This document shows positions 23,983-25,047 of a stretch of DNA of 64,000 nt, piece after piece; the stretch's first letter is position 1, and each line of letters opens with the position of its first letter. The notes beneath the pieces are model-generated. The model ran no database searches. It worked only from the letters and a program-made list of their open reading frames with translations, and was not told the DNA's origin. A program made the translations under genes and the position numbers. Origin of the DNA: Rhodospirillales bacterium (GTDB lineage Bacteria > Pseudomonadota > Alphaproteobacteria > Rhodospirillales > Defluviicoccaceae); the NCBI GenBank assembly GCA_007694935.1, contig REES01000065.1, positions 1 to 64,000 on the forward strand. Reading direction: 5' to 3'.

Positions 23983-24510
23983 ATGACACCACGGGTCGTC
24001 AAGGCCGTCTTGGCGGCGCTGCTCCTGCTGGCCGTCGCCCCGGGTTGTGCCGAGCCGCTCGACACCGCCGACCGGGCGGCGGACGCAACGGCGCCCTGCG
24101 GCACGGCGGTCGCGGTTGCGCCCGAACGCGCCCAGGTGCTGATGGGGCTGGCGGACGAGTTGGGCCTGGATCACCCGCAGGCCTTCGCCGGGGTTGCGGC
24201 CACGCTCGAGAAAACCGGCGCGCTGCCCCGGTGCTACCTCACCAAGGACCAGGCCCGGGAGGCGGGCTGGCGCCCCGGCGGCGACCTGTGGGAGCACCGG
24301 CCGGGCTACGCGATCGGCGGCGACCGCTTCGGCAACTTCGAACGGCGGCTGCCGCAGCATCACGCCTACGTCGCCGCCGACCTGGACTACGCCGGCGGTC
24401 GGCGCGGGCCGCGGCGGCTGGTCTATGTCACGGATGCCGAGGAGTCTCCCGCGGTGTGGGTGACAGTCGATCACTACAACACTTTCACCGCGGTACCGCC
24501 GGCGCCATGA
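23983..24510 (+). CDS. Barnase-like ribonuclease, catalytic Glu replaced
   Basis: A 175-residue exported protein with a barnase-type RNase domain at about 45-172. The signal peptide (VLAALLLLAVAPGC) may be a lipoprotein signal on Cys22, though the lipobox is weak. Aligned by eye to barnase, Lys27 (K88, YLTKDQAREAGW), Glu60 (E120), Arg83 (R141), Arg87 (R145, RRLVYVTD) and His102 (H164, VDHYNTF) are kept, but the general base Glu73 (WREAD in barnase) is Ala131 (YVAAD) and Arg59 is Phe119. Activity is therefore in doubt. The stop overlaps the barstar start (ATGA), showing coupled expression of enzyme and inhibitor. Confidence 0.85.
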   Translation: MTPRVVKAVLAALLLLAVAPGCAEPLDTADRAADATAPCGTAVAVAPERAQVLMGLADELGLDHPQAFAGVAATLEKTGALPRCYLTKDQAREAGWRPGGDLWEHRPGYAIGGDRFGNFERRLPQHHAYVAADLDYAGGRRGPRRLVYVTDAEESPAVWVTVDHYNTFTAVPPAP

Positions 24511-24830
24511 CCGGACCCGACGAATCGCCCATTGAATCGGAAAGCGGCATGCGCCACTGCACCCTTGACGGCCGTGCCGTCGGCTCGCTCGACCAGGCGT
24601 TCGAAATCCTGGCCCGGCAACTGGACTTCCCGCCTTGTTTCGGGCGCAACCTGGATGCCCTGTGGGATGTGCTCACCACCGACCTGGAAGGCCCGTGCAC
24701 GGTGCGCTGGCACCATTGCGGGCGGTCGGCTGCGGCCATGGGCCCGGACTTCGAGCGCCTGCTGGCGGTCCTGCAGGACGCCGCCCGGGAACGCCCCGAC
24801 CTCCACGTGGAGCTGGCCGAGGACGGTTGA
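24507..24830 (+). CDS. Barstar-family ribonuclease inhibitor
   Basis: A 107-residue barstar homologue, cytoplasmic, expected to bind and block the neighbouring RNase. The inhibitory helix is conserved: PPCFGRNLDALWDVLT holds Asp50 and Asp54, equal to Asp35 and Asp39 of barstar, the residues that fill the barnase active site. The rest follows the fold (hydrophobic FERLLAVLQDAAR helix, then a HVELA strand). About 14 extra residues precede the first strand RHCTLDG; ATG 24549 (MRHCTL) is a possible alternative start. The ATG at 24507 overlaps the RNase stop. Confidence 0.88.
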   Translation: MTGPDESPIESESGMRHCTLDGRAVGSLDQAFEILARQLDFPPCFGRNLDALWDVLTTDLEGPCTVRWHHCGRSAAAMGPDFERLLAVLQDAARERPDLHVELAEDG

Positions 24831-24960: not shown

Positions 24961-25047
24961 GCCCAGGTGGCGGAATTGGCAGACGCGCAGGTTTCAGGTA
25001 CCTGTGGCCGCAAGGCCGTGGAAGTTCGAGTCTTCTCCTGGGCACCA
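24961..25047 (+). tRNA. tRNA-Leu (anticodon CAG)
   Basis: A class II tRNA with encoded CCA. The acceptor stem GCCCAGG pairs with CCTGGGC (25037-25043), the discriminator is A, and CCA occupies 25045-25047. The anticodon stem CAGGT/ACCTG encloses TTCAGGT, giving anticodon CAG, which reads CUG, the dominant leucine codon here. A long variable arm (TGGCCGCAAGGCCG) and the T-arm loop TTCGAGT are present. Confidence 0.96.

Follow-up and report, generated by a model that had tools for sequence, protein, structure and literature searches.

The 64,000-nucleotide stretch of Rhodospirillales DNA analysed here (the window) encodes a protein that belongs to the barnase family by profile match and predicted fold, but lacks the general-base glutamate of barnase (Glu73) and is paired with an intact barstar. 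In barnase, Glu73 accepts the 2'-OH proton and His102 protonates the leaving group; the window protein keeps the histidine and has alanine (Ala131) at the Glu73 position. The same alanine is found in a sister species, and the RNase and the barstar are both preserved by purifying selection. The reading that we favour, at about even chances, is that this general-base-less barnase is dead or extremely slow and has been kept for binding (of barstar and perhaps of RNA).

Active site and predicted fold

Both genes of the pair scored well above the family cut-offs in profile searches (49.8 bits against 24 for the RNase, 81.7 bits against 23.4 for barstar). They are adjacent on the same strand and overlap by ATGA, as the sequence-only reading had it. 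The sole other genome of the genus found to carry the RNase gene is Rhodospirillales PLM2.Bin41 (G485, equated with this assembly through identical sequence; loci L002 and L025), hereafter the sister, where the junction is GTGA. The position of the overlapping barstar start is conserved in the sister, but translation might begin at an internal ATG in either species; that of the window barstar has an SD-like GGAAAG. Upstream of the window RNase, on the opposite strand, lies a SixA-like phosphatase gene (sixA, named from its sequence and not from a family search), and a tRNA-Leu gene is found downstream of the pair (24961-25047).

Table 1. Coordinates of the RNase and barstar features in the window
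Feature	Position	Strand	Basis
Barnase-family (PF00545) protein with signal sequence, 175 aa, Ala131 for Glu73, Phe119 for Arg59	23983..24510	+	
N-terminal signal sequence, ending at Cys22 (VAPG-C)	23983..24048	+	sequence
RNase domain, residues 67-171, aligned to barnase/binase	24181..24495	+	
Codon TTC of Phe119, Arg59 position, guanine-binding loop	24337..24339	+	
Codon GCC of Ala131, Glu73 position, general base	24373..24375	+	alignment and predicted structure
Codon of His164, His102 position, general acid, kept	24472..24474	+	alignment
Barstar (PF01337), 107 aa if started in the ATGA overlap, 93 aa if started at ATG 24549	24507..24830	+	

A phmmer search against PDB chains aligned the RNase domain with binase (1gou, E=2.3e-16) and wild-type barnase (1a2p, E=3.1e-14) in a register that sets 'hayvaad' opposite 'rtwread' and thereby equates Ala131 with Glu73 and Phe119 with Arg59, and a MAFFT alignment of the window protein with barnase and its relatives gave the same register. 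Akin to barnase and binase, the protein has the IGGD-F-N loop and keeps (barnase numbers in brackets) Lys88 (27), Asp114 (54), Asn118 (58), Glu120 (60), Arg141 (83), Arg145 (87) and His164 (102). Besides the two pocket substitutions, it differs from them in a loop 65-70 that is two residues shorter, a hairpin before the last strand that is four residues longer, and an N-terminal extension carrying a second cysteine, a possible partner of the one in LPRCYLTK. The shorter loop precedes the strand that bears Ala131 and might have caused a misalignment, which we rejected: the register is fixed by the motif Ala-Asp-x-Asp-Tyr and the invariant arginines, the alignment from residue 131 to Arg141 is free of gaps (the strand 129-133 with its invariant Asp133, then Arg141 and Arg145), and four relatives that share the short loop (L014, L063, L066, L074) have Glu73 nonetheless. 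An AlphaFold2 model of the RNase (mean pLDDT 91.8) likewise places residue 131 within the strand 129-133, and its top Foldseek matches are binase and barnase, the latter superposing with an rmsd of 1.2-1.6 Å and a TM-score on the target of 0.86-0.89 for most entries. Sequence search, alignment and model thus bear out the two substitutions, and the equivalents of Lys27, Glu60, Arg83, Arg87 and His102, that had been read by eye; the predicted structure, like the alignments, puts Ala131 in the Glu73 place.

A scan for clade-specific residues, made on the sequence alone, revealed no Asp, Glu or His gained by the clade that would be a plausible base. The acidic or histidine residues that are common to both species and rare elsewhere (positions 48, 58, 59, 63, 64 and 104) map to the N-terminal part of the protein, to the first helices or to helix three, outside the pocket by alignment; Glu104 sits in the helical region of binase Glu43, a residue that exists there alongside that enzyme's own general base. 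Two extra loop histidines of the window protein are absent from the sister.

Distribution and selection

Glu73 occupies 64 of 69 aligned rows, that of barnase among them, the five alanine rows being copies of the window and sister proteins (both are included with duplicates), and it recurs in four further relatives (from Aerococcus, Acetoanaerobium, Proteus and a viral contig). Comparison with many homologues therefore sets the two proteins apart, as all 68 other family members inspected have glutamate where they alone have alanine. Across the aligned rows His102 and Arg87 are invariant and Glu60 and Arg59 variable. In a tree of 63 rows the window and sister proteins are paired with support of 100/99, and parsimony on this tree requires a single change at position 73; the best explanation would be one loss of Glu73, in the ancestor of the genus, with the alanine kept ever since. 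Our literature search, which covered few of the classical barnase kinetics papers, turned up no natural barnase without Glu73.

Phe59, by the same alignments, is not the odd part of the protein: L062, L065 and the Aerococcus relative L074 also combine it with Glu73 and have a barstar next to the gene, and six other family members have Tyr59. The weight that had been put on the replacement of Arg59 is thus reduced, as Phe or Tyr is common there in barstar-paired homologues that keep Glu73. Elsewhere in the family, the guanine-recognition residue Glu60 is changed and Glu73 kept (Gly in L062 and L065, Ala in L066 and L026, apparently Lys in L073), and base preference may differ in these relatives. 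L026 also has Ile at Arg83, and L064 and L067, barnases without an adjacent barstar, have Asp for the guanine-loop Asn58.

The sister protein, which shares Phe59 and Ala73 and lies likewise between sixA upstream and barstar downstream, is 72% identical to the window protein over the domain and 61% over the whole length. The identities by codon position (0.88/0.83/0.52) place most changes at third positions, and the RNase domain and sixA both have a dN/dS (NG86) of 0.16, against 0.22 for barstar; these values are approximate given a dS near 1. From this comparison of two species, the RNase domain is constrained, and RNase and barstar are preserved by purifying selection. An assembly error was rejected, as the independently assembled sister genome has Ala73 too, with another alanine codon (GCG for GCC).

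All nine other genomes of the taxonomic family lack the gene, which is very rare across the order; probably, then, the genus either acquired it or kept it selectively. A mobile or viral origin was rejected: there was no phage match, matches in the plasmid collection are distant (up to 44%), and the one relative on a viral contig is distant and has Glu73. The defence and NCBIfam libraries gave no match.

Barstar partner and N-terminal region

The window barstar has both key aspartates (NLDALWD; Asp35 and Asp39, the DxxxD of helix 2), in agreement with the sequence-only reading, and is ordinary for its subfamily. A co-change with Phe59 (Glu76 to Asp) was considered and rejected, since many barstars that have Asp76 accompany a barnase with Arg59. 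The window and sister genomes each encode a single PF00545 protein and, next to it, a single barstar, and no second barnase or barstar was found in the window's genome, so that there is no further recognised barnase for the barstar to guard against. Among the relatives, five alphaproteobacterial genomes encode Glu73 barnases with a complete active site and have no barstar over the Pfam threshold (G117, G222 and G1073 with loci L004, L005 and L068; G1067 and G1070 with L064 and L067). Binase-producing Bacillus is also without barstar (PMC8837141). Some barnases with a complete active site can therefore do without barstar, yet it is kept with the Ala73 one.

The signal sequence suggests that the RNase is exported. 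By eye, the sister has a canonical lipobox (LAGG-C) and is a probable lipoprotein; lipidation of the window protein (VAPG-C) is uncertain because of the proline at -2. Cys22 is characteristic of the pair and rare in the other aligned rows, and membrane tethering, if real, would have arisen in the lineage that acquired Ala73. A wider subfamily (window 23983-24240, L002, L013, L007, L004, L005, L068, L064 and L067) has an N-terminal CysGly motif and a second cysteine in LPxCYLTK, which probably form a disulfide that pins the N-terminal extension to the RNase domain.

Binding or catalysis

We propose that the pair comprises a barnase-type exported RNase and a barstar that is made from the next, overlapping gene and stays in the cytosol, and that the general base would have been lost once (Glu73 to Ala), in the genus ancestor, and the protein kept thereafter. 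With no acceptor for the 2'-OH proton, the RNase would most likely be inactive or orders of magnitude slower. The kept pocket (Lys27, Asn58, Glu60, Arg83, Arg87 and His102) would retain what in barnase serves RNA binding and the barstar interface. Barstar would hold the RNase in the cytosol; after export, which in at least one of the species would yield a lipoprotein, the RNase may act in the envelope by binding RNA, guanine nucleotides or a partner resembling barstar. Tentatively, such a membrane-tethered pseudo-enzyme could be a regulated binder of RNA or of a partner, with barstar repurposed as its controller or chaperone.

Studies of barnase bear on this proposal from both sides. A description quoted in PMC6453258 has Glu73 without direct barstar interaction, which makes it the catalytic residue least needed for direct barstar contact, and its loss, as the only catalytic residue without such a contact, fits selection for binding. 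The engineered E73W variant, used as 'enzymatically inactive', keeps its fold and still pairs with barstar in the laboratory (PMC6439198); akin to it, the window protein has lost the general base, but the change is natural, to Ala and not Trp, and fixed in the genus together with Phe59. Against a binding role, barnase Glu73 mutants reportedly bind barstar somewhat more weakly (PMC6453258), and barstar dissociates about 100-fold faster once Arg59 is replaced by Ala (PMC11408511). The protein also retains the catalytic acid His102 and both phosphate-binding arginines, and a dead enzyme needs no immunity, which leaves the intact barstar unexplained unless binding matters. As the six pocket residues are both RNA-site residues and barstar contacts (PMC11408511), their retention cannot separate catalysis from binding. 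The locus has the adjacent gene order, start/stop overlap and barstar aspartates of a barnase-barstar toxin-immunity pair, but its toxin member is without the residue held necessary for toxicity.

A serious rival, though a less likely one, is a working, slow RNase in which the base would be replaced by the substrate, by water or by a residue nearby in a shifted pocket, and barstar would still be needed as cytosolic immunity. It would account for the retention of all other catalytic residues, for purifying selection on the domain comparable to that on sixA and for the intact, adjacent barstar, and loss of the base need not abolish activity, since His40 of RNase T1 substitutes when Glu58 is removed (PMC2525682). 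It is at odds with a pocket that has gained no acid and no histidine shared by the clade, with the invariance of Glu73 in the other proteobacterial and Bacillota members and with the inactivity described for E73W; moreover, as full-Glu73 relatives live without a recognised barstar, its retention is no proof of activity. That the Phe59/Ala73 pocket has been re-tuned to bind or cleave another nucleotide or ligand in place of ordinary guanine-containing RNA, we regard as improbable: substitutions at two pocket residues and at further positions (such as 106) did occur in one lineage, and the base-recognition position varies in the wider subfamily (Gly or Ala for Glu60 in L062, L065 and L066), but the clade keeps the guanine-recognition residues Glu60 and Asn58, and Phe59 is shared with Glu73-bearing relatives. 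Early decay of a non-functional remnant heading for loss is the least probable. The absence of the family from the other genomes searched in the taxonomic family, and its rarity in the order, would mark it as dispensable, but neither reading frame is broken in two species whose proteins are 61% identical overall, changes are mostly at third codon positions with a domain dN/dS of 0.16, and Phe59 and Ala73 are fixed in both, so that decay is largely refuted. The suggestion of an inactive or altered enzyme kept with a functional inhibitor, made from the first inspection of the sequence, stands as an interpretation in light of the fixed alanine, the purifying selection and the lack of a substitute acid in the sequence. 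The decoy or signalling role suggested alongside it is speculative.

Barnase-barstar is a standard model for enzyme catalysis and for protein binding, and here evolution has taken out exactly Glu73 and kept nearly everything around it. The pair allows one to ask, in a natural setting, whether the fold has been selected for anything besides RNA cleavage, whether activity can persist without the base and whether barstar functions beyond immunity, and the contrast with Glu73 relatives that lack a recognised barstar sharpens the question.
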